From assembly GCF_006175995.1 (NCBI RefSeq), contig NZ_VDMB01000001.1, positions 421,946 to 455,160 on the forward strand: a DNA stretch of 33,215 nt. Reading direction: 5' to 3'. Of this stretch, positions 515 through 33,215 are shown in pieces. A model generated the notes under the pieces. The model saw nothing but the letters and a program-made list of their open reading frames with translations. It made no database searches and had not been told where the DNA came from. How positions within the stretch are numbered: the stretch's first letter is position 1; each line of letters opens with the position of its first letter. The translations under genes and the position numbers were made by a program. Origin of the DNA: Desulfobotulus mexicanus. Its GTDB lineage: Bacteria > Desulfobacterota > Desulfobacteria > Desulfobacterales > ASO4-4.

Positions 515-2074
515 TCATGGAATTGCTGGTTTTTCCACGGTGAAATTTTTGATGTTGCGCTCTTTTTCAGAAAACTCCACGGCAATGAGATAGATGCAGG
601 TACCCTCTTTGGCGTATTTGCGGTGGTACTGTTTTTTATGGAGCTGCTCCATGGCAGAGCCTTTGGTGCTGTTTTCTATCACCTTGAATTCAAAAATATA
701 CACGGTATCTTTGTAAAAAACACTCATGTCCATGCGTCCATGACTTGTGGCATCTTCTGCCTTCACATCAAATCCTGATGCTGCAAAGTAACAGTAGAAA
801 ATGCTGGCATAGTATCCTTCATAGCCAGCCAGCTGGTTTTTTCTGTACCAGTCGTGGGGGATGGATGCAAAAAAGCTCTGGAACAGATCCTTCATGGCCT
901 CTGGATTTTCCTGTTCAAAACAGGTGTAGAGGCTGCTGCGGATGATTTCTTTTTTTCGGTAGTCCTGAACCAGATAGTTTAAAAAATAATTGGTGAGGCT
1001 GTATTTGACCTCAAGGTTGGGGTATCCCATCCTGAAGCGGATCATGCCTTCTCCGGGCATTTTTTCCTTGATGGTGAGATATCCCGTTTGAAAGAGCAGG
1101 TTTTCCACATAGATCATGTCCACATCAAGGGAGCCGATGAGCTCTCTTCCCAGCACGATGTCTTCCATGGAAGGAACAAAATACTGCTGCTTTCCCATGA
1201 GCTGAATGAGGAAGGTGGGCGTTGCGGTTTCAAACCAGTAGGGCTGAAATTCCTTTTTGTCGAAAAAAAGCAGCACATCAAAGGGGTTGTACACCTTTTC
1301 TCCCAGCCAGGCATAGCCGTTGTACCAGGCCCTGAACTTTTCTCTGTTTACAGAAATCATCTGATCTTGGAATACCTCTTCCACCTCATCATGGGTGTAG
1401 CCACATATATGGCTGTATCGGGCATCCAGGGTGATATCATTGAGGTTATTCAGCCCACTGAAAAGGGAAACCTTGGAAAATTTGCTGACTCCTGTAATGA
1501 AAACAAACTTTAAGTGGGCGTCTGCATCCTTGAAAACAGAGTATAGGTTTTTGAGTTCTTCCCGGATTTTTACGGCAAGCTCTTTGTTTTCAATGCAGTC
1601 CAGGATGGGTTTGTCGTATTCATCCACCAGCACCACAACCGGCTGCTGTGTAGTTTTGTGAAGCTTTTCAATCAGGTCAAGGAATTTGCCTCTAAGGCTT
1701 GGCGCTTCTGGCAGGGAAACGCCATTGTCCCGGCAGTTTCTTACAAGAATTTCTTCCTGAGCTTCCTTGAGTTCTTCTAATGACCTGAAAACACCGGAGC
1801 CGAAGCTGATGCGGATGACGGGATATGAAGTGTTCCAGTCCCAGTTGTTTTCAAGGAAAAGCCCTTTAAAATATTCTTTTTTCCCTAGGAAGGCCTGCCT
1901 GAGGGTGTCCAGAAAAAGACTTTTGCCAAAGCGTCTGGGTCTTGAAAGAAAATAATAACCGCCCCCCTGAAGGCAAAGTTCCTTCACAAATGAGCTTTTG
2001 TCCACGTAGTAGTATTCTCCGGGATTTTCTCTGATTTTTTCAAAGCTCTGGATGCCAATGGGGAGTTTTTTCAT
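515..2074 (-). CDS. AAA-ATPase-like / PD-(D/E)XK nuclease-like protein, copy B
   Basis: This 519-residue protein has the architecture of the AAA-ATPase-like (PF09820) plus PDDEXK_9 (formerly DUF1703, PF08011) family, which is expanded in Bacteroidetes and sulfate reducers and has no established function. The N-terminus (MKKLPIGIQSFE, then YYVDKS) is typical. A Walker A-like loop SRPRRFGKS lies at about 44-52 (K51) and a Walker B VVVLVDEYD at about 146-154 (D151, E152). Near the C-terminus a D449...E462-F-K464 pattern (GRMDMSVF...FEFK) matches a PD-(D/E)XK core. It looks intact. It is nearly identical to the gene at 2359-3906 except at residues ~13-38 and ~100-147. The leader just before the ATG (AAAGGGCTATCCC) is shared by both copies. 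Confidence 0.9.
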   Translation of the reverse strand: MKKLPIGIQSFEKIRENPGEYYYVDKSSFVKELCLQGGGYYFLSRPRRFGKSLFLDTLRQAFLGKKEYFKGLFLENNWDWNTSYPVIRISFGSGVFRSLEELKEAQEEILVRNCRDNGVSLPEAPSLRGKFLDLIEKLHKTTQQPVVVLVDEYDKPILDCIENKELAVKIREELKNLYSVFKDADAHLKFVFITGVSKFSKVSLFSGLNNLNDITLDARYSHICGYTHDEVEEVFQDQMISVNREKFRAWYNGYAWLGEKVYNPFDVLLFFDKKEFQPYWFETATPTFLIQLMGKQQYFVPSMEDIVLGRELIGSLDVDMIYVENLLFQTGYLTIKEKMPGEGMIRFRMGYPNLEVKYSLTNYFLNYLVQDYRKKEIIRSSLYTCFEQENPEAMKDLFQSFFASIPHDWYRKNQLAGYEGYYASIFYCYFAASGFDVKAEDATSHGRMDMSVFYKDTVYIFEFKVIENSTKGSAMEQLHKKQYHRKYAKEGTCIYLIAVEFSEKERNIKNFTVEKPAIP

Positions 2075-2095
2075 GGGATAGCCCTTTATTTCAAT
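515..2095 (-). repeat. Tandem duplication unit, copy B
   Basis: The segment repeats at 2359-3926 in the same orientation. Block 1 (515-1630) matches 2359-3474 base for base in length (1116 nt) with only scattered substitutions. Then 139 nt (1631-1769) are unrelated or strongly diverged. Block 2 (1770-~1955) matches 3611-~3796. A second diverged stretch covers roughly 1956-2039, and block 3 (about 2040-2095) contains the start codon and leader. Similarity also continues past the stop codon into the following ATPase remnant (GGAGAGGCTCCATGCA at both). Confidence 0.9.
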
Positions 2096-2173
2096 TCTTA
2101 ATGCTCAATTATTTTAGTATCTCCAGATTTTAATCTGCTGATTTTCAAGACTGGCCGTTTTATGCCATATCTT

Positions 2174-2296
2174 TTAATCTCGCGGAACTTCAGGGCTTCG
2201 GTTGAAAATCACGAGGTGCATTTCTTCTGATCCGACTAATTGGCAGTAATTATCTTCTTTGATCATGGGGCCTGCTGTGTTGAAGAATTTCTGCAT
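2174..2296 (-). pseudogene. Truncated remnant of the KFFNTAGP-type AAA-ATPase-like gene
   Basis: After a GGAGAGG ribosome-binding site, the frame starts MQKFFNTAGPMIKEDNYC, nearly the same as the beginning of the remnant at 173-472. Homology then stops abruptly. The remaining 22 codons (from QLVG to a TAA at 2174-2176) show no family resemblance. No Walker motif is left. It sits just downstream of the copy A ATPase/nuclease gene, the same relative place as the 173-472 remnant behind copy B, so it belongs to the duplicated unit. A 40-residue peptide could still be translated, but function is unlikely. Confidence 0.75.
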
Positions 2297-2358
2297 GGAG
2301 CCTCTCCTGTTTTGTTGTTTGCCTGCTCAGGCCGGGTGATGTGATTGCCTCCCATTGT

Positions 2359-3906
2359 TCATGGAATTGCTGGTTTTTCCACGGTGAAATTTTTGATGTT
2401 GCGCTCTTTTTCAGAAAACTCCACGGCAATGAGATAGATGCAGGTGCCCTCTTTGGTGTATTTGCGGTGGTACTGTTTTTTATGGAGCTGTTCCATGGCA
2501 GTGCCTTTGGTGCTGTTTTCTATCACCTTGAATTCAAAAATATACACGGTATCTTTGTAAAAAACACTCATGTCCATGCGTCCATGACTTGTGGCATCTT
2601 CTGCCTTCACATCAAATCCTGATGCGGCAAAGTAGCAGTAGAAAATGCTGGCATAGTATCCTTCATAGCCAGCCAGCTGGTTTTTTCTGTACCAGTCGTG
2701 GGGGATGGATGCAAAAAAGCTCTGGAACAGATCCTTCATGGTTTCTGGCTTTTCCTGTTCAAAACAGGTGTAGAGGCTGCTGCGGATGATTTCTTTTTTT
2801 CGGTAGTCCTGAACCAGATAGTTTAAAAAATAATTGGTGAGGCTGTATTTGACCTCAAGGTTGGGGTATCCCATCCTGAAGCGGATCATGCCTTCTCCGG
2901 GCATTTTTTCCTTGATGGTGAGATATCCCGTCTGAAAGAGCAGGTTTTCCACATAGATCATGTCCACATCAAGGGAGCCGATGAGCTCTCTTCCCAGCAC
3001 GATGTCTTCCATGGAAGGAACAAAATACTGCTGCTTTCCCATGAGCTGAATGAGGAAGGTGGGGGTTGCCGTTTCAAACCAGTAGGGCTGAAACTCCTTT
3101 TTGTCGAAAAAAAGGAGCACATCAAAGGGGTTGTACACCTTTTCCCCCAGCCAGGCATAGCCGTTGTACCAGGCCCTGAATTTTTCTCTGTTTACAGAAA
3201 TCATCTGATCTTGGAATACCTCTTCCACTTCATCATGGGTGTAGCCGCATATATGGCTGTGCCGGGCATCCAGGGTGATATCATTGAGGTTATTCAGTCC
3301 GCTGAAAAGGGAAACCTTGGAGAATTTGCTGACTCCTGTAATGAAAACAAACTTTAAGTGGGCGTCCGCATCCTTGAAAACAGAGTATAGGTTTTTGAGT
3401 TCTTCCCGGATTTTTATGGCAAGTTCTTTGTTTTCAATGCAGTCCAGGATGGGTTTGTCGTATTCATCCACCAGAATGACCACATTCAGGCCGGTTTTTC
3501 GGGTAATTTTGACAATTGCTTCCATGAGGCGGTCGTTGACGGCTGTTTTTTCATATTCGATTTGAAATTCATTTTTGATATCCATGAGAATGGAATCGAT
3601 TTTTGTTCTTAGTTCTTCTAATGATCTAAAAACACCGGAGCCGAAGCTGATGCGGATGACGGGATAAGAAATGTTCCAGTCCCATTTGTTTTCAAGGAAA
3701 AGTCCTTTAAAGTATTCTTTTTTTCCAAGGAAGGCCTGCCTGAGGGTGTCCAGAAAAAGACTTTTGCCAAAGCGTCTGGGTCTTGAAAGGAAATAGTATT
3801 TTCCAGTATCCATTAGTTTTTTTATGAAAAAGGTTTTGTCCACATAGTAATGGGGTTCCGAACGTATGGCTTCAAAGCTCTGGATACCAATGGGAAGTTT
3901 TTTCAT
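2359..3906 (-). CDS. AAA-ATPase-like / PD-(D/E)XK nuclease-like protein, copy A
   Basis: This 515-residue paralogue of the 515-2074 product has the same layout: MKKLPIGIQSFE start, SRPRRFGKS Walker A at ~41-49 (K48), VVILVDEYD Walker B at ~142-150 (D147, E148), and D445...E458-F-K460 near the C-terminus, consistent with a PD-(D/E)XK fold. From residue ~147 to the end the two proteins differ at only a handful of positions. At residues ~13-35 (AIRSEPHYYVDKTFF) and ~100-143 they differ strongly, and both versions look like normal family sequence. It appears intact. Its ATG overlaps the stop of a small upstream frame (ATGA, 3903-3906). Function is unknown; a role in nucleic-acid transactions is only inferred from the domains. 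Confidence 0.9.
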   Translation of the reverse strand: MKKLPIGIQSFEAIRSEPHYYVDKTFFIKKLMDTGKYYFLSRPRRFGKSLFLDTLRQAFLGKKEYFKGLFLENKWDWNISYPVIRISFGSGVFRSLEELRTKIDSILMDIKNEFQIEYEKTAVNDRLMEAIVKITRKTGLNVVILVDEYDKPILDCIENKELAIKIREELKNLYSVFKDADAHLKFVFITGVSKFSKVSLFSGLNNLNDITLDARHSHICGYTHDEVEEVFQDQMISVNREKFRAWYNGYAWLGEKVYNPFDVLLFFDKKEFQPYWFETATPTFLIQLMGKQQYFVPSMEDIVLGRELIGSLDVDMIYVENLLFQTGYLTIKEKMPGEGMIRFRMGYPNLEVKYSLTNYFLNYLVQDYRKKEIIRSSLYTCFEQEKPETMKDLFQSFFASIPHDWYRKNQLAGYEGYYASIFYCYFAASGFDVKAEDATSHGRMDMSVFYKDTVYIFEFKVIENSTKGTAMEQLHKKQYHRKYTKEGTCIYLIAVEFSEKERNIKNFTVEKPAIP

Positions 3907-23598: not shown

Positions 23599-24618
23599 AT
23601 GAAAATCCATCCCGTTTCCCAGATGACAGTAAAAAACAGCATGAAGGCCTTAGGGCGGATGCTGGGGTGGGTTCAGAATAAGGACTATCGTCTTTTGAAT
23701 GAGCATCTGCTGGCCATGCAGGAAAAAGAGGATCTGGACGGTCTGCTGGCCGAAGTTTCTCACTGCCTGTCAGAGATGCTTAATTATCGTCTCTTTGCCT
23801 TTGTGATACGGGATGAAACCGGTGTGGATGTATGGATTGATCCTACCATGTTCCGGGATGCCTTTTCCCGTATTGTGACCGAAGATCTCGGACTTGATCC
23901 CGGGATGAATATCCGCTTTATGGGTAATATTGAAGAAGCCGTGGAGCAGAGGTCCATTTCCAGAGATGATATGGAAGTCCGGAGTTTTAAAGAATCCAGT
24001 TTCACGGCCCACCTTTATCTTGCTACGGGACGCAGAATGCTTTCTCACCACAATGATATTCTGGAAAGTCTTCTTGCAGGGCTGAGGGTATCTTTGATCA
24101 ATCATGTCCGTATTCGAAGTCTGCAGGGAGCAGTTTCTGAAGATGCCTTGACAGGATGCTATAATCGCAGGGAATTTGATCGTCAGCTGGAGCGCCATCT
24201 GGCCGCAGTGAAGCGTCATGGGAAGGATTTTGCTCTGGTTTTTTTTGATCTCGATCATTTCAAGGCTGTGAATGACACCTACGGACACCTGGCAGGGGAT
24301 GCCGTATTAAGAAACGTTGCCATGGAGGTTCGCCGGAAAATCCGCACAGGAGATCTGCTCTGCCGTTATGGTGGAGAAGAGTTTGCCCTTCTTCTTCCCG
24401 AGACCGATGGAGAAAAGGCTGCTGATCTGGCAGAACGTCTCCGCATTGCCATTGAAGGGCTTCAGGTTGATGCAGGGGATGGCCTTAAGTTACAGGTTAC
24501 GGCCAGCTTTGGCGTGGCTGAGGCGGATGCGGCAATGGGCAGTGACAATTTGGTGGCAGAGGCTGACACCATTTTATACCGTGCCAAGAATCAGGGCCGC
24601 AACTGTGTTGCATTTTAG
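23599..24618 (+). CDS. Diguanylate cyclase (GGDEF domain)
   Basis: This 339-residue soluble protein makes c-di-GMP from GTP. The GGDEF domain fills about residues 175-339: DALTGCYNRREFD, FFDLDHFKAVNDTYGHLAGDAVL, and an intact GGEEF active site at 258-262. An RxxD inhibitory site (RTGD, 249-252) lies five residues before it, so product feedback is likely. The N-terminal ~170 residues have no membrane segment and probably form a GAF-like sensor domain, although this was not recognised with confidence. It sits just upstream of the che cluster but is separated from it by a terminator. Confidence 0.93.
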   Translation: MKIHPVSQMTVKNSMKALGRMLGWVQNKDYRLLNEHLLAMQEKEDLDGLLAEVSHCLSEMLNYRLFAFVIRDETGVDVWIDPTMFRDAFSRIVTEDLGLDPGMNIRFMGNIEEAVEQRSISRDDMEVRSFKESSFTAHLYLATGRRMLSHHNDILESLLAGLRVSLINHVRIRSLQGAVSEDALTGCYNRREFDRQLERHLAAVKRHGKDFALVFFDLDHFKAVNDTYGHLAGDAVLRNVAMEVRRKIRTGDLLCRYGGEEFALLLPETDGEKAADLAERLRIAIEGLQVDAGDGLKLQVTASFGVAEADAAMGSDNLVAEADTILYRAKNQGRNCVAF

Positions 24619-25098
24619 GTTTTCAGGCAGACCGGGCCTGTGATCTGGGTGTGGATATAGCGCAGATTTTCAGGCTATAATGATCTTGCCTGTGAATAGA
24701 ATTGCTGGTGATAAAGAAATACAGATAAAAAACCATAGTAAATATGTGTCGTACCTGTTCCGTAAGGAAGCCATCTAAGGCTGTCATTGAGGCTTAACAG
24801 GAGCATGGTGAATGTCTTTTCCGGGTTGAGTAACGCCTTTCCTTTGAGGAAGGCGTTTTTATTTTTGGTGGCGGACTTGCAATTTCAGCATAAAAATATT
24901 TTAATGACTATCATCTTTGATCCAGAATCCGGCTTATAGTAAGGTCTGGTTCTTATTCTCTCATAATTTCTGCGTTTTTTTATTATGTTTGTAAACCTTG
25001 TGTTTTTGTCGGATATCTTCCTTACTCTGTTACGGGGTTTGCCTTGAAAAATCGGGTTCTGGATTTCCGGCTCTCCCGCCACCTAATAATGGGGCATT
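24619..25098. other. Intergenic region between diguanylate cyclase and cheR
   Basis: This ~480-nt gap has a terminator at 24832-24867. No convincing gene was found; short frames here lack support. No good sigma-70, sigma-54 or sigma-28 promoter for cheR could be defined by eye, and cheR has only a weak ribosome-binding site. Confidence 0.5.
24832..24867 (+). terminator. Rho-independent terminator downstream of the diguanylate cyclase gene
   Basis: AACGCCTTTCCT (24832-24843) pairs with AGGAAGGCGTT (24847-24857) with one bulged T, followed by TTTATTTTT. It lies 213 nt after the GGDEF gene and 231 nt before cheR. Confidence 0.8.
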
Positions 25099-25941
25099 AT
25101 GTCTGGTATTCCTTCGTTTGATTTGAGTGATAGAGATTTCAGTTTTTTCAGCCGTCTTGTGTATGAAAAATGCGGAATTTCTCTGCATGATGGAAAAAAG
25201 GAACTGGTGCGCTCCCGTCTTTCCAAGCGTCTCAGAGAACTGCACTTTTCCGGTTTCTCCCAATACCTAAAATACCTTCAGTCACCGGACGGTGAAGATG
25301 AGCTGATTCTGATGCTGGATGCCATTTCCACCAACCTCACCAGCTTTTTTCGGGAAAAACGGCATTTTGATTTTCTTGAAAAAGAGGCTTTGGAAAGCAT
25401 TACTGCTCAGATGAAACGGGAGAGCCGACGGGAGCTGAATATTTGGAGCGCTGGTTGTTCCACCGGAGAAGAGCCGTATACGCTGGGAATATGTCTTTCA
25501 GAAGCACTGGGGGCATCCTCCGGCCTGAAGGTGAAAATTCTGGCGACGGATCTTTCCACCCGTGTTCTGGATACGGCTCAGTCGGGTATTTATCCCAGTG
25601 CCAGGGTGGCAGGGCTCCCGCAGGATCTTCTCAAGCGTTATTTTCTTAAGGGAAGGGGAAAAAGGCAGGGGCAGGTGCGGGTGAATCCTGAAATCCGCAG
25701 TATGATTACTTTCCGCCGTTTCAATCTTATGGACCCGTTTCCTGCAGGTGTCCGTTTTGATGTCATATTCTGTCGCAATGTGATGATTTACTTTGATAAG
25801 CCTACTCAGGAAGTTCTTGTGGGAAAATTTCATCAGTCACTTAGGCAGGGGGGGTATCTCTTTATCGGTCATTCCGAAAGCCTGATGGGTATAGAGCATC
25901 GTTTCCGCTATGTCCAACCGACCATTTACCTTAAAAGCTGA
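25099..25941 (+). CDS. cheR: Chemotaxis protein methyltransferase CheR
   Basis: CheR methylates glutamates of chemoreceptors with S-adenosylmethionine. The 280-residue product has the helical N-terminal domain (FFSRLVYEKCGISLHDGKKE, RLSKRLRELHFSGFSQYLKYL) and the catalytic domain with the SAM motif IWSAGCSTGEEPYTLG (near 115-130) and DVIFCRNVMIYFDK followed by GHSESL. It is the first gene of the che cluster, 21 nt ahead of cheA. No C-terminal pentapeptide-binding or TPR extension is present. Confidence 0.96.
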   Translation: MSGIPSFDLSDRDFSFFSRLVYEKCGISLHDGKKELVRSRLSKRLRELHFSGFSQYLKYLQSPDGEDELILMLDAISTNLTSFFREKRHFDFLEKEALESITAQMKRESRRELNIWSAGCSTGEEPYTLGICLSEALGASSGLKVKILATDLSTRVLDTAQSGIYPSARVAGLPQDLLKRYFLKGRGKRQGQVRVNPEIRSMITFRRFNLMDPFPAGVRFDVIFCRNVMIYFDKPTQEVLVGKFHQSLRQGGYLFIGHSESLMGIEHRFRYVQPTIYLKS

Positions 25942-25962: not shown

Positions 25963-28224
25963 ATGGAAAAAACGGCATCTGGCATTCAGGCCGTTCTTGA
26001 TGAAGTGGCTTTGAAGGTTGTCATGCTTGAGGCAGATGACATTCCGGGGCTGGGTATTCTGCTTTCTGATCTGGATCGTCTTGGTTCTTCATTGGCAGCT
26101 TCGGATCTGCCGGAATCTGCAGGTCAGCTTCTTTCTTCTGTGCGGATTTTTACTGAGCGTCTTATTCTTGGCGAAGTTAGCGATACTGTCCCTTTGGAGA
26201 ACAGTATTACTCTTTTGCAGGAAATGGACAGAGCCTCTACACGGGGGATCAGCTGGGACGGGGATATTTCTTCTCTTGTTAATGAGCTGAAGGGGACCTT
26301 GCCTTCGGATCAGCCTCAGGCTGAAGAAACCTGCAATAAGAAAGCTTCTTTATCTGCAGATACTGAAAGTGGCGGTTTTGACGGTGACAGAAGTTATAAG
26401 GATCAGGATCTTGAAATACTGGCGGATTTTGTGGTGGAATCCCTTGAAAGTCTTGAAAACATTGAAGTACGTTTGATTGATCTGGAGGAAGACCCTGGGG
26501 ATGTGAAAATACTCAATGATATTTTCCGCCCCTTTCATACAATTAAGGGAGTTTCGGGTTTTCTGGATCTTTTTGAAATAAATCGTCTTGCCCATAGTAC
26601 GGAAAATCTTCTGGACAGTGCCAGGGAAGGTAAACTCGGGCTTAGCCAGGAATTTATTGATCTTATTTTGAGTTCAGTGGATACCCTGAGGGAATTGATC
26701 GGTTGCGTGCGTGGCAGCCTCAGTGAGGGCGGCAGAATGAAAGGCTGTGGCGTGGATATTCATCCACTCATGGAGCGCATGGATCAGTATAAGGACAGCC
26801 CTGTATCCGGCAGGCTGGGAGAAATTCTTGTAAAACGGGGCCTTGTCGATGAACAGGCTATAGAGGATGGCCTGAAGAAACAGGAGGCCTATGGAAAGCC
26901 TCTGGGCGAAATTCTGATTTCAGAAAAAAAAGTGAGTCCAAAGGATGTGGTTTCCGCCCTAAGGGATCAGAAGCGGGGAAGGCAGAACGGTAACGGCAAA
27001 GGGGCTGCCCTGCAGGTAAAGGTGGATACGGCGAAGCTCGACAACCTTGTGGATCTCACGGGTGAACTGGTGATTGCCCAGGCTATGCTCCGGCAGCAGG
27101 CTCTGGATAAGGCCAGGGATTTTTCCCAGAATATGGGGCGTCTCGGGCAGATCGTTTCGGATATTCAGCGTCTGGCCATGGGGATGCGCATGGTGCAGAT
27201 TGGCAATACCTTTCAGAAGATGCACCGTCTTGTACGGGAACTTGCCAAGGCGGGAGGAAAGCAGGTTGTTCTGGAAATGTCGGGTCAGGATACGGAAATT
27301 GACCGCAATGTCGTTGAAACCCTTTATGAGCCCATGGTGCATATGATCCGTAATGCCGTGGATCATGGGCTGGAAACGCCCGAAGAAAGACTGGCTTCTG
27401 GAAAGCCGGAGAGGGGTACGATTTTTTTGAAGGCCTACCATAAGGGTGGCAGTATTGTTATTGAGATGTCCGATGATGGTCGCGGACTGGATGCGGAACG
27501 AATTTTAGCTAAGGGCGTTGAGCGGGGGATAGTTTCTCCGGATGCCCATCCCACAAAGCAGGAGATTTTTGAGCTGATCTTCCATCCCGGTTTTTCAACG
27601 GCTGCAGCCATTACCGATGTTTCCGGCAGAGGTGTTGGTATGGATGTGGTGAAAAGGGTACTGGAAACTCTGAGGGGGCGTCTGGATATCCATTCAGAGC
27701 CAAAGAAGGGGACAACCTTTGTTCTGGCCCTTCCCCTGACCATGGCCATCATTGACGGTATGCTGGTCCGGGTTGGCAGGGAACGTTACATTATTCCTGC
27801 CATTGCCATTTTAGAATCTTTTCGCCCGGCAAAAAAGGATGTCTTCACCGTCGCCAATCATGGTGAAATGGTCATGGTTCGGGGATCTTTGGTACCGCTT
27901 ATCCGCCTTGGTCAGATCTGTGATGTGCCAGAAGACAGGACGCAGCCATGGGAAGCTCTGGTGGTGGTTGTGGAAAACAAGGAACGAAGACGGGCCCTGC
28001 TTCTGGATGAGCTTTTGAGTAAAGAGGAGTTTGTCATTAAAAGTATGGGAGAAACCTTCTGTAAGCTGGGTTTTCTTGCGGGGGCTGCGATTCTGGGGGA
28101 CGGTTGTGTGGGCTTGATTCTGGATATGGCAGGCCTTTTTGACATGACAGAGAATCTGGTGCCAACTGAAATGAAAAGCCGGAATTCAGAAATGATTACC
28201 GAAGGGCAAGAGGAGGGCCGGTGA
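25963..28224 (+). CDS. cheA: Chemotaxis histidine kinase CheA with an inserted MshEN-like module
   Basis: This 753-residue kinase starts with a helical extension (1-110) without a phosphorylatable HxxKG. An Hpt domain follows at about 148-250 with the phosphorylation site H192 (FHTIKG). Next comes an insert at 284-336 made of two 24-residue motifs five residues apart. The first, R284-L-G-E-I-L-V-K-R-G to Q307, fits the MshEN c-di-GMP-binding consensus; the second (P313-L-G to Q336) is partly degenerate. Then come the dimerisation helices (~353-420), the ATPase domain (HMIRNAVDHGLE, DDGRGLD, GRGVGMDVVK) and a CheW-like domain (~595-735). There is no separate P2 domain. The 3' end overlaps cheD by 4 nt. 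Kinase identity is certain; ligand binding by the insert is inferred. Confidence 0.96.
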   Translation: MEKTASGIQAVLDEVALKVVMLEADDIPGLGILLSDLDRLGSSLAASDLPESAGQLLSSVRIFTERLILGEVSDTVPLENSITLLQEMDRASTRGISWDGDISSLVNELKGTLPSDQPQAEETCNKKASLSADTESGGFDGDRSYKDQDLEILADFVVESLESLENIEVRLIDLEEDPGDVKILNDIFRPFHTIKGVSGFLDLFEINRLAHSTENLLDSAREGKLGLSQEFIDLILSSVDTLRELIGCVRGSLSEGGRMKGCGVDIHPLMERMDQYKDSPVSGRLGEILVKRGLVDEQAIEDGLKKQEAYGKPLGEILISEKKVSPKDVVSALRDQKRGRQNGNGKGAALQVKVDTAKLDNLVDLTGELVIAQAMLRQQALDKARDFSQNMGRLGQIVSDIQRLAMGMRMVQIGNTFQKMHRLVRELAKAGGKQVVLEMSGQDTEIDRNVVETLYEPMVHMIRNAVDHGLETPEERLASGKPERGTIFLKAYHKGGSIVIEMSDDGRGLDAERILAKGVERGIVSPDAHPTKQEIFELIFHPGFSTAAAITDVSGRGVGMDVVKRVLETLRGRLDIHSEPKKGTTFVLALPLTMAIIDGMLVRVGRERYIIPAIAILESFRPAKKDVFTVANHGEMVMVRGSLVPLIRLGQICDVPEDRTQPWEALVVVVENKERRRALLLDELLSKEEFVIKSMGETFCKLGFLAGAAILGDGCVGLILDMAGLFDMTENLVPTEMKSRNSEMITEGQEEGR

Positions 28225-28700
28225 GAGTGATTGTTGGCGTTTCCGATATGAAAGTCAGCGCAAATCCGGGTGATGAACTGGTTACCTATTCTCTGGGTTC
28301 CTGTATTGGCATAGTTATCTATGACCCGGTGGCCAAGGTTGGGGGGATTCTGCATTATATGCTTCCGGAATCATCACTGGATCCGGAAAAAGCCAGAAAG
28401 AATCCTTATATGTTTGCTGATACAGGAATTCCTGCCCTTTTTAAAGCAAGCTATGCTTTGGGGGCTAAAAAACAGCGCATGAAGGTTGCCATTGCAGGAG
28501 GAGCTCAGATTCTTGATCAGCAGGGTTTTTTCAATATCGGTAAAAGAAACCATATGGCAGTAAAGAAAATGTTTTTCCGCAACAATGTTATTGCAAATCA
28601 TGAGGATGTGGGTGGCAATGTTAACCGTACTGTCCGGTTGAAAATTGTCTCCGGAGATATTCATATAAAAGTTGGCGGAGAAGGGGAGAAAAAGCTATGA
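28221..28700 (+). CDS. cheD: Chemoreceptor glutamine deamidase CheD
   Basis: CheD deamidates receptor glutamines and in some systems works with CheC/CheX-type phosphatases. In the 159-residue product the catalytic pair is visible: C28 in YSLGSCIGIVIYD and H45 in GGILHYMLPE. AIAGGAQIL and a DVGGNVNRTVRLKIVSG segment follow. I use the GTG at 28221 (GTGA overlap with the cheA stop), which has GAGGAGG upstream. An internal ATG at 28248 would cut the conserved start. Confidence 0.95.
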   Translation: MRVIVGVSDMKVSANPGDELVTYSLGSCIGIVIYDPVAKVGGILHYMLPESSLDPEKARKNPYMFADTGIPALFKASYALGAKKQRMKVAIAGGAQILDQQGFFNIGKRNHMAVKKMFFRNNVIANHEDVGGNVNRTVRLKIVSGDIHIKVGGEGEKKL

Positions 28701-29545
28701 GCGCTATTTCGGAACTGATCCGTGAAATTGACGGTTTAAAGCCCATGCCCCAGATTGCTCAGCAGGTTCTGGCACTGGCGGAAGATCCCATGGCGGATAC
28801 TCAGAAAATTGCCGAGCTGATTCGTTTTGATCCTTTTATTACGGCAGATCTTTTGAAAATGTGCAATTCCGCATACTTTGCAAGAAGCCGTACCATTGAC
28901 TCCGTTCATGATGCCATCAATATTTTAGGGATGAACCGTATTGTGGATCTTGTGGTTATGAAATGCGGGGCAGGCAATTTTTCAGGGGAACAGCAGGGCT
29001 ATGGTCTGGATGAGGGAGCTTTGTGGAAAAAAGCGGTAAGCTGCGCCATTATTGCAAGGGATCTGGCTGTCAGAGTAGGACTTGCAGACCGGCATCTGGT
29101 TTTTACTGCGGGTCTTCTCAGGGATATAGGCAAGGTGATTCTAAGCCGTTTTGTGGGAGAGCGCTTTGGGCGTATTCAGCAGTTGGTGGCTGAGGAGAAT
29201 TACAGTTTCCGGGAGGCGGAAAAGAAAATCCTCGGTGTGGATCAGTCTGAACTCTCCGGCATTGTAGCCAAAAAATGGGGCTTCAGTCCCCGTTTGCAGA
29301 CCCTGATACGTAACTCTCATATGCCCGAAGGCGTCGGATTTTCCGATCATGCCGTTAATGTTGTTTATGTGGCAGATCAGGTCTGTATCATGCTGGGTAT
29401 AGGTGTGGGGCTGGATGGTCTGGCCTATCGCTTCCACAGGGAGGCTTTAAAGGTTCTCGGCCTTGGGGCAAGGGATCTGCAGGAAATTATTGCCGGCTTT
29501 GGAGATAAGATTCGGGAAGTTGAAGATCTTATCGGATCTTTTTGA
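28697..29545 (+). CDS. HDOD-domain signalling protein
   Basis: This 282-residue protein has an HDOD domain across most of its length: LKPMPQIAQQVLALAEDP, IAELIRFDPFITADLLKMCNSAYF, and VHDAINILGMNRIVDLV. The motif that would be HD in true phosphohydrolases reads LLRDIGK (R142-D143), so metal-dependent catalysis is unlikely, as in most HDOD proteins. The domain is common in two-component and c-di-GMP networks but its activity is unclear. The gene overlaps cheD by 4 nt (ATGA) and sits between cheD and cheY, so it is a fixed member of this chemosensory operon. Confidence 0.9.
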   Translation: MSAISELIREIDGLKPMPQIAQQVLALAEDPMADTQKIAELIRFDPFITADLLKMCNSAYFARSRTIDSVHDAINILGMNRIVDLVVMKCGAGNFSGEQQGYGLDEGALWKKAVSCAIIARDLAVRVGLADRHLVFTAGLLRDIGKVILSRFVGERFGRIQQLVAEENYSFREAEKKILGVDQSELSGIVAKKWGFSPRLQTLIRNSHMPEGVGFSDHAVNVVYVADQVCIMLGIGVGLDGLAYRFHREALKVLGLGARDLQEIIAGFGDKIREVEDLIGSF

Positions 29546-29947
29546 AAAAGCTCACAAGGGGGATATTCATGGCTTATAAAATGCTGGTGGTGGATGATTC
29601 CCAGCCCATGCGTTCTGTAATTAAAAAAACAATCCGTGCTGCGGGGTATGGGGATGCTGATTTTCTGGAGGCTTCCAATGGAAGGGAGGCTTTGGCCCTT
29701 GTGGGAGAAAGCTGGCTGGATCTTGTGGTTACGGATTACAATATGCCGGATATGAACGGTATGGAAATGATAGAAGAATTTAAAAAAGATGCTGTTCTGG
29801 CAGGAATCCCAGTGCTGGTTGTAACAACGGAGGGAAGCCTTGAAAAAGTTGAGGCTTTTTTACAGATGGGCGCTGCGGGATATATAAAAAAGCCTTTTAG
29901 TCCGGAACAGATAAGGGAGAAAATAGTCGCCATATTAGGAGAACCCC

Positions 29948-31484
<1,537 letters not shown>

Positions 31485-33152: not shown

Positions 33153-33215
33153 TCAACGGAGAGTTTGATCCTGGCTCAGAATGAACGCTGGCGGCGTGCT
33201 TAACACATGCAAGTC
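33153..33215 (+). rRNA. rrs: 16S ribosomal RNA, 5' end only
   Basis: AGAGTTTGATCCTGGCTCAG begins at 33160 and corresponds to E. coli position 8, the classic 27F primer site. GAACGCTGGCGGCGTGCTTA and ACACATGCAAGTC follow. The window ends within the gene. The exact mature 5' end is estimated from the E. coli numbering. Confidence 0.97.

Follow-up and report, generated by a model that had tools for sequence, protein, structure and literature searches.

A putative MshEN-type c-di-GMP-binding module within a chemosensory CheA kinase

The CheA kinase encoded in the window (the whole 33,215-nucleotide stretch of DNA analysed here) carries, ahead of its dimerisation domain, a module which is probably an MshEN_N c-di-GMP-binding domain, and which would tie chemosensory output to the cellular second messenger. 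Both the sequence and the predicted fold of the module point to this identity, and we regard binding of c-di-GMP by the module as quite likely. Putative direct control of the kinase by c-di-GMP is the best explanation of this arrangement, and it is the position of the module that suggests it. A sequence-only reading of this DNA had proposed such sensing. MshEN homology, as it had claimed, was supported, and so were the fold and a strong constraint on the ligand contacts, and because of these direct c-di-GMP sensing is the best reading; its claim of novelty, its description of the module as inserted, and its use of a neighbouring cyclase gene as evidence were not sustained.

The kinase and its two-motif module

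The following features of the window are referred to below, with the domains and motifs of CheA given by residue number:

23599..24618, + strand: diguanylate cyclase (GGEEF; RxxD I-site by eye; PF00990, 1.4e-45)
24832..24857, + strand: terminator-like hairpin, 10 pairs and a T-rich tail, in the gap between cyclase and cheR (consensus match only)
25099..25941, + strand: cheR (Pfam CheR)
25963..28224, + strand: cheA, 753 aa (Pfam Hpt, H-kinase_dim, HATPase_c, CheW)
26413..26694, + strand: P1/Hpt domain of CheA, residues 151-244 (Pfam)
26812..26970, + strand: MshEN_N-type four-helix module, CheA residues 284-336 (NF053729; AlphaFold2 model with Foldseek and VIA-align matches to MshE and PilF)
26812..26883, + strand: motif I, residues 284-307; R284, L285, G286, I300, L304 and Q307 align with MshE contacts
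26899..26970, + strand: motif II, residues 313-336; L314, G315, V329, L333 and Q336 align with contacts; P313 in place of Arg, K322 in place of Gly
27016..27183, + strand: P3 dimerisation domain, residues 352-407 (Pfam)
27331..27741, + strand: P4 kinase/ATPase domain, residues 457-593 (Pfam)
27757..28146, + strand: P5 CheW-like domain, residues 599-728 (Pfam)
28221..28700, + strand: cheD (Pfam)
28697..29545, + strand: HDOD gene (Pfam)
29542..29991, + strand: cheY-like receiver (Pfam Response_reg)
29948..30409, + strand: cheX phosphatase (Pfam)
30372..31484, + strand: cheB (Pfam)

As judged from its sequence, the window CheA is a P1-P3-P4-P5 histidine kinase with a phosphorylatable His and ATP-binding boxes; His192, Lys195, Gly196 and the N- and G-box residues show no variation in 18 orthologues. 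The earlier placement of the module between Hpt (151-244) and P3 (352-407) agrees with the Pfam domain boundaries. No P2 model of Pfam matched the window CheA at E<=1, and the gap between Hpt and the module is 39 residues. Residues 1-110 (25963-26290), which precede Hpt, are predicted to form an N-terminal helical domain with five helices. Pfam gave nothing for this region at E<=1; its mean site rate is high (1.39, 81 CheAs), and it is possibly a degenerate second Hpt. The host is taken to be a sulfate-reducing member of the Desulfobacterota, on the basis of an APS reductase beta-subunit gene and the nearest named relatives. Elsewhere in the window, two neighbouring minus-strand genes at 515-3906 both belong to the AAA-ATPase_like/PDDEXK_9 family, and the start of a 16S rRNA gene (33153-33215) is truncated by the window end.

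Residues 284-336 consist, as had been claimed, of two 24-residue MshEN motifs separated by a 5-residue spacer (308-312). Motif I fits the published motif at every specified position, given that Ile or Val is accepted at positions 17 and 21 (position 17 is I300 instead of Leu). When the CheA sequence was shuffled 20,000 times, the strict motif arose in none of the shuffles and the relaxed motif of Wang et al. in 20. Motif II retains L2, G3, L6, I7, V12, V17 (for Leu), L21 and Q24. Loss of its central Gly (K322) had been recognised, but the extent of the change was understated, as Arg1 (P313) and the hydrophobic residue at position 11 (K323) are gone too, and at positions 10 and 11 motif II departs even from the relaxed motif.

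The expectation that the module would match an MshEN profile was borne out by one of two models. NF053729 (NCBIfam, MshE-related c-di-GMP-binding domain), a curated model of 53 positions with a cut-off of 38 bits, matches CheA with 51.9 bits (E 4.7e-14) over positions 1-53 of 53, and the module scored 56.6 bits in the genome-wide search. On the other hand, PF05157 (Pfam MshEN) gave no match at E<=1, and a PF05157 match was likewise absent from ten other module-bearing CheAs. In several reading frames the NF053729 match stops where that of PF05157 starts (e.g. G007:C239), so that PF05157 appears to model the region downstream of the motif pair. All 18 CheAs of the orthologue alignment A1 match NF053729 at E<=1e-6, at least 15 of them above the cut-off among the matches listed; of ten further CheAs scanned, seven scored above it and three below, at 28-30 bits (Actinoplanes L093, Pseudomonas L134 and Methylobacter L110). 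Searched against PDB with phmmer, the window module sequence alone found PilF (7.7e-14) and MshE (6e-4), and a profile of 18 orthologous modules found PilF (7.1e-29), PilB (4.8e-10) and MshE (6.5e-9).

Structure prediction returned the anticipated MshEN-like four-helix bundle. In the AlphaFold2 model based on the module alignment, helices span CheA residues 285-291, 297-310, 314-320 and 326-342, and pLDDT averaged by blocks is 90-94 across most of the helical part. The top Foldseek row is MshE with c-di-GMP (5htl_B; 0.8 Å over 53 columns, 38% identity, probability 1.00, E 0.004), and rows 1-16 are all N-terminal domains of MshE, PilF or PilB. VIA-align gave Z 10.7 for this same MshE chain, 5htl_B (rmsd 2.0 over 58), the first unrelated row standing at Z 6.9. 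Helical bundles are prone to high chance scores in structure alignment; therefore, the sequence evidence outweighs the structural one. The model of the whole CheA (pTM 0.39, mean pLDDT 74.6) contains the same four helices, with pLDDT below 50 at 340-367; it leaves the module unplaced with respect to the rest of the kinase.

Ligand contacts and their conservation

In the account of MshE given in the text of Wang et al. 2016 (PMC5013675), as far as it was available, Arg1 provides the stacking on guanine, and a hydrophobic clamp consists of Leu2, Leu17 and Leu21; backbone hydrogen bonds come from Gly3 and the following non-conserved residue, and Gln24 is bonded to ribose and phosphate. When the 12 conserved contact positions are compared, nine are identical in the window CheA, two are conservatively changed (I300 and V329) and one is replaced (P313). 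The residues of the polar contacts, Gly3 and Gln24, are all four present across the two motifs. The stacking Arg is found in motif I (R284) and, motif II having P313, not in both motifs. According to the portions of the PilF study (PMC11731258) at hand, GSPII-B has the two Arg exchanged for Lys and Leu, its affinity for c-di-GMP being 6 nM, and GSPII-C binds it despite Pro335 at the position equivalent to P313. Since these subdomains bind without the Arg of motif II, binding by the CheA module is compatible with P313. A second report, likewise consulted in extract (PMC12002112), describes a poor motif II and no binding in GSPII-A, and abolished binding after an Arg-to-Ser change in a mutated PilF subdomain; thus, the tolerance of motif changes is context-dependent.

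Conservation was followed in 189 CheA reading frames, picked by similarity to the window CheA and therefore not a census. Two HMMs of the module, made from 18 and 17 of the frames, found it in 135 of the 189. These modules comprise 81 distinct ones of the window's class (and three duplicates), 24 with a mostly 1-residue spacer, 11 of a 'PRIGD' type, six proteobacterial ones (with a long spacer in four, by eye) and ten others left out of all counts. Within the window's class, Gly3 is present in both motifs of every member (81/81 and 81/81) and Gln24 in 76/81 (motif I) and 80/81 (motif II), counts that lean this way as the motif-placing script rewards Gly3 and Gln24; MAFFT alignments made without such a reward, a smaller one included, single out the same four positions. 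Gly10 occurs in 64/81 and 5/81 of motifs I and II, respectively, and Lys or Arg occupies position 1 in 16/81 and 77/81. Each of the 81 modules has Lys or Arg at this position of at least one motif, and in 69 of them one motif only has it. The idea that the basic residue at position 1 acts as compensation was abandoned, as three of the four motif-II exceptions belong to one genus, which leaves only about two independent events. Absence of the contact Arg from close homologues had been named as telling against binding. Arg1 of motif I is kept in all three genomes of the genus, yet in only 10/81 CheAs of the class (motif II, 12/81); however, this objection carries little weight, given that PilF GSPII-B, a 6 nM binder, has neither Arg.

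By maximum-likelihood site rates (MAFFT, 81 CheAs), no position among the 53 of the module evolves more slowly than Q336, Q307, G286 and G315. Their counterparts in MshE are the conserved residues which form polar contacts with c-di-GMP, and a retained ligand is therefore favoured. The chance of exactly these four being slowest, 1 in 292,825, is indicative only, as the smaller alignment had flagged the columns beforehand. Taken together, the 12 contacts have lower rates than the remaining 41 positions (Mann-Whitney p 9e-4, 81 CheAs). L318, a core position, follows closely on the top four, and ten contacts (position 1 excluded) showed no significant slowing relative to eight core positions (p 0.15); the conservation signal is thus partly structural. 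Packing alone could conserve Gly3; folding by itself does not, to judge by these rates, account for the part of the signal that lies in the ligand-face Gln residues. Among 22 CheAs with the 1-residue spacer, these four positions take ranks 1, 4, 5 and 8 of 49. Modules of the PRIGD type have lost Gln24 of motif I in 9/11, which indicates that the fold can outlast an intact site. As a control, 13 frames found by the CheA-module HMM among 35 PF05157 loci had Gln24 in 9/13 and 6/13 and Gly3 in 12/13 and 9/13 of motifs I and II, in a set of limited size which was chosen for its likeness to the CheA module and contains at least one visibly misplaced row (L005). Another control, with 34 PF05157 domains, was rejected since the alignment had landed on the post-motif region.

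Distribution and genomic setting

The survey of CheA homologues suggested earlier does reveal the module in CheAs of several phyla. It was found in 31 of 80 named loci, many carriers being metagenome bins. Carriers include Desulfobacterales, Syntrophales, Desulfofervidaceae, Desulfuromonas, Nitrospira and Nitrospinia, as well as Planctomycetota, Auribacterota, Actinoplanes, Gemmatimonadota, Magnetococcales and Pseudomonas. Carriers of the module group together strongly on the CheA tree (187 rows; 14 changes, compared with 47 on average after shuffling), a quick tree in which 57 of 184 inner branches are weak; the module has therefore mostly been inherited with the kinase. Well-supported branches require at least nine gains or losses. 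The description of the module as an insertion thus gives way to inheritance within this CheA lineage.

A second CheA class of the order (18 loci, L038-L055) has the 1-residue spacer, frequently a basic residue (Arg or Lys) at the start of each motif, and the module placed after an extra conserved segment of about 85 residues. This segment was considered as a P2 domain and the assignment was not confirmed: no CheA P2 chain was found, and Pfam P2 appeared only at E 0.084 and 0.098 (L134 and L110). One contig of G017 encodes two module-bearing CheAs, one per class, no more than about 12 kb apart (L060 and L046). In Pseudomonas (L134 and L143) the CheA module is divergent, with a spacer of about 10 residues and with Gly3 and Gln24 present in both motifs; frames resembling cheW, cheR, cheD and cheB lie downstream of CheA in L143 (by eye).

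The GGDEF gene (23599-24618) and the HDOD gene (28697-29545) lie where they had been reported. The proximity of the cyclase had been offered in support of c-di-GMP sensing, and this argument did not hold. A hairpin of ten pairs precedes cheR (24832-24857; terminator-like sites numbered 4, against 3.6 in shuffles), and a cyclase homologue adjoins CheA in 5 of 15 testable loci, the window included (BLAST 1e-8; 17 fetched loci less L062, L069 and L072, with under 1 kb upstream, plus the window). Three of the five are from one genus, the others being L064 and L065 at 37-40%. The hairpin and the 5/15 adjacency weaken the cyclase as a functional partner, and the genome has 20 GGDEF matches in all; the neighbouring cyclase is a possible source of c-di-GMP. 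All of cheD-HDOD-cheY-cheX-cheB stands beside cheA in 11 of the 17 loci fetched, some others ending at contig edges. No c-di-GMP riboswitch was detected in the window at Rfam gathering scores. The genome also has 31 MCP-signal matches, some of which are fragments of one gene.

In this genome (98% complete) NF053729 scores above its cut-off only in the window CheA, and three other places reach 26-27 bits. One of the weak matches, at 26 bits and below the cut-off, lies in a FapA-like protein (PF03961; L244, C20:32250-32405). Five PF05157 proteins of the genome (L001-L005) are T2SSE-type ATPases with no NF053729 match at 1e-5, and these ATPases may not bind c-di-GMP. Above-cut-off matches, many of them outside CheA, occur in at least 54 of 58 genomes (the host's own included); the sole match is therefore a feature of this genome and not of the order.

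Sensing of c-di-GMP by CheA, its alternatives and known systems

If the module works as in MshE, it would bind a single molecule of c-di-GMP, or possibly of another cyclic dinucleotide, with a guanine in each motif and the stacking Arg in motif I only (R284), in resemblance to Thermus PilF GSPII-C. The bound ligand could then stiffen the module or shift it on the flanking linkers, which the model puts at about 278-284 and 342-355. The reach of P1 to the kinase domain or to response regulators would be altered, with a change in P1 mobility or in the P1-P4 contact and so in kinase or transfer activity. Chemosensory output would thereby be coupled to the cellular level of c-di-GMP; the sign of the effect is not readable from the sequence. 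The 20 GGDEF matches of the genome and the lone above-cut-off NF053729 match in CheA also speak for this reading. What counts against binding is motif II, devoid of Arg1, the turn Gly and one hydrophobic residue.

The same erosion of motif II would fit a substitute for P2, that is, an MshEN-derived docking domain for CheY, CheB or CheX which has lost nucleotide binding. The module occupies the usual place of P2, for which the window CheA has no model match at E<=1, and PRIGD-type CheAs retain the fold with a broken site. We nevertheless consider docking unlikely, as the nearly fixed ligand-face Gln24 residues would demand additional assumptions, and the other CheA class has the module plus the separate segment of about 85 residues before it, so that the module is not a simple stand-in.

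It is also conceivable, at a still lower probability, that the ligand is a different cyclic dinucleotide, e.g. 3',3'-cGAMP, or another small molecule. A section of Wang et al. 2016 is headed 'MshEN can also bind cGAMP' (PMC5013675; the heading is what we rely on). K322 and K323 do alter the turn of motif II; however, every residue aligned with a c-di-GMP contact is kept or conservatively changed, bar Arg38. Moreover, the neighbouring cyclase carries the Asp of FKxxND, which we take to be the GTP-selective form. Marginally less probable again is a purely structural spacer devoid of ligand. Its appeal lies in the mean site rate of the module, which evolves faster (0.96) than P1, P3, P4 and P5 (0.47-0.60, 81 CheAs), but the very slowest sites are ligand contacts, and the linkers are far faster (1.63-3.29) than the module.

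With c-di-GMP sensing thus preferred, a wider proposal may be put forward, towards which, taken as a whole, we lean slightly. Many CheAs, an overlooked large group from several phyla, would have c-di-GMP as a direct allosteric ligand. The site would have turned asymmetric, most members having a basic guanine-stacking residue in one motif only, and in some species of this group the CheA module would be the only canonical MshEN-type motif pair. The known links between c-di-GMP and chemotaxis, in the literature as excerpted here, act via separate proteins, e.g. MapZ on CheR1. A receptor within CheA would let c-di-GMP act on the kinase itself, and, if this is true, the messenger of the motile and sessile states feeds straight into chemosensory kinase output. 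As the domain has about 60 residues and two point changes should blind it, a direct input to CheA is readily testable.

Such an input had been presented as not known to be described. The text of Wang et al. 2016 (PMC5013675), in the part consulted, already lists CheA among MshEN-associated proteins, and the architecture, with its occurrence in CheA named there, is not new. A functional test of an MshEN-CheA was not found in the open-licence PMC literature. What is new is the description of this member, the constraint on contact residues across 81 CheAs, and the finding that it holds the sole above-cut-off MshEN motif pair of its genome.

Among characterised relatives, MshEN_N of Vibrio cholerae MshE (PDB 5HTL; NF053729) shares with the CheA module the two 24-residue motifs, the 5-residue spacer and the four-helix bundle. 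The CheA module differs in being embedded in CheA with no PF05157 match after it, and in a motif II that is devoid of Arg, the turn Gly and one hydrophobic residue. Thermus thermophilus PilF GSPII-C, the best-scoring stretch of PDB, likewise has Pro at position 1 of motif II; in contrast, it is part of a traffic ATPase, has Gly10 in motif II, and has a spacer of 7 (counted on the alignment). The association of CheA with MshEN in Wang et al. 2016 (PMC5013675) is the same domain pairing, present as a mention in the available part of the text. In Caulobacter ShkA (PMC7010744, in the portion consulted) and CckA, c-di-GMP also acts on a histidine kinase; these systems employ other binding domains and another type of kinase, and neither is a chemosensory CheA.
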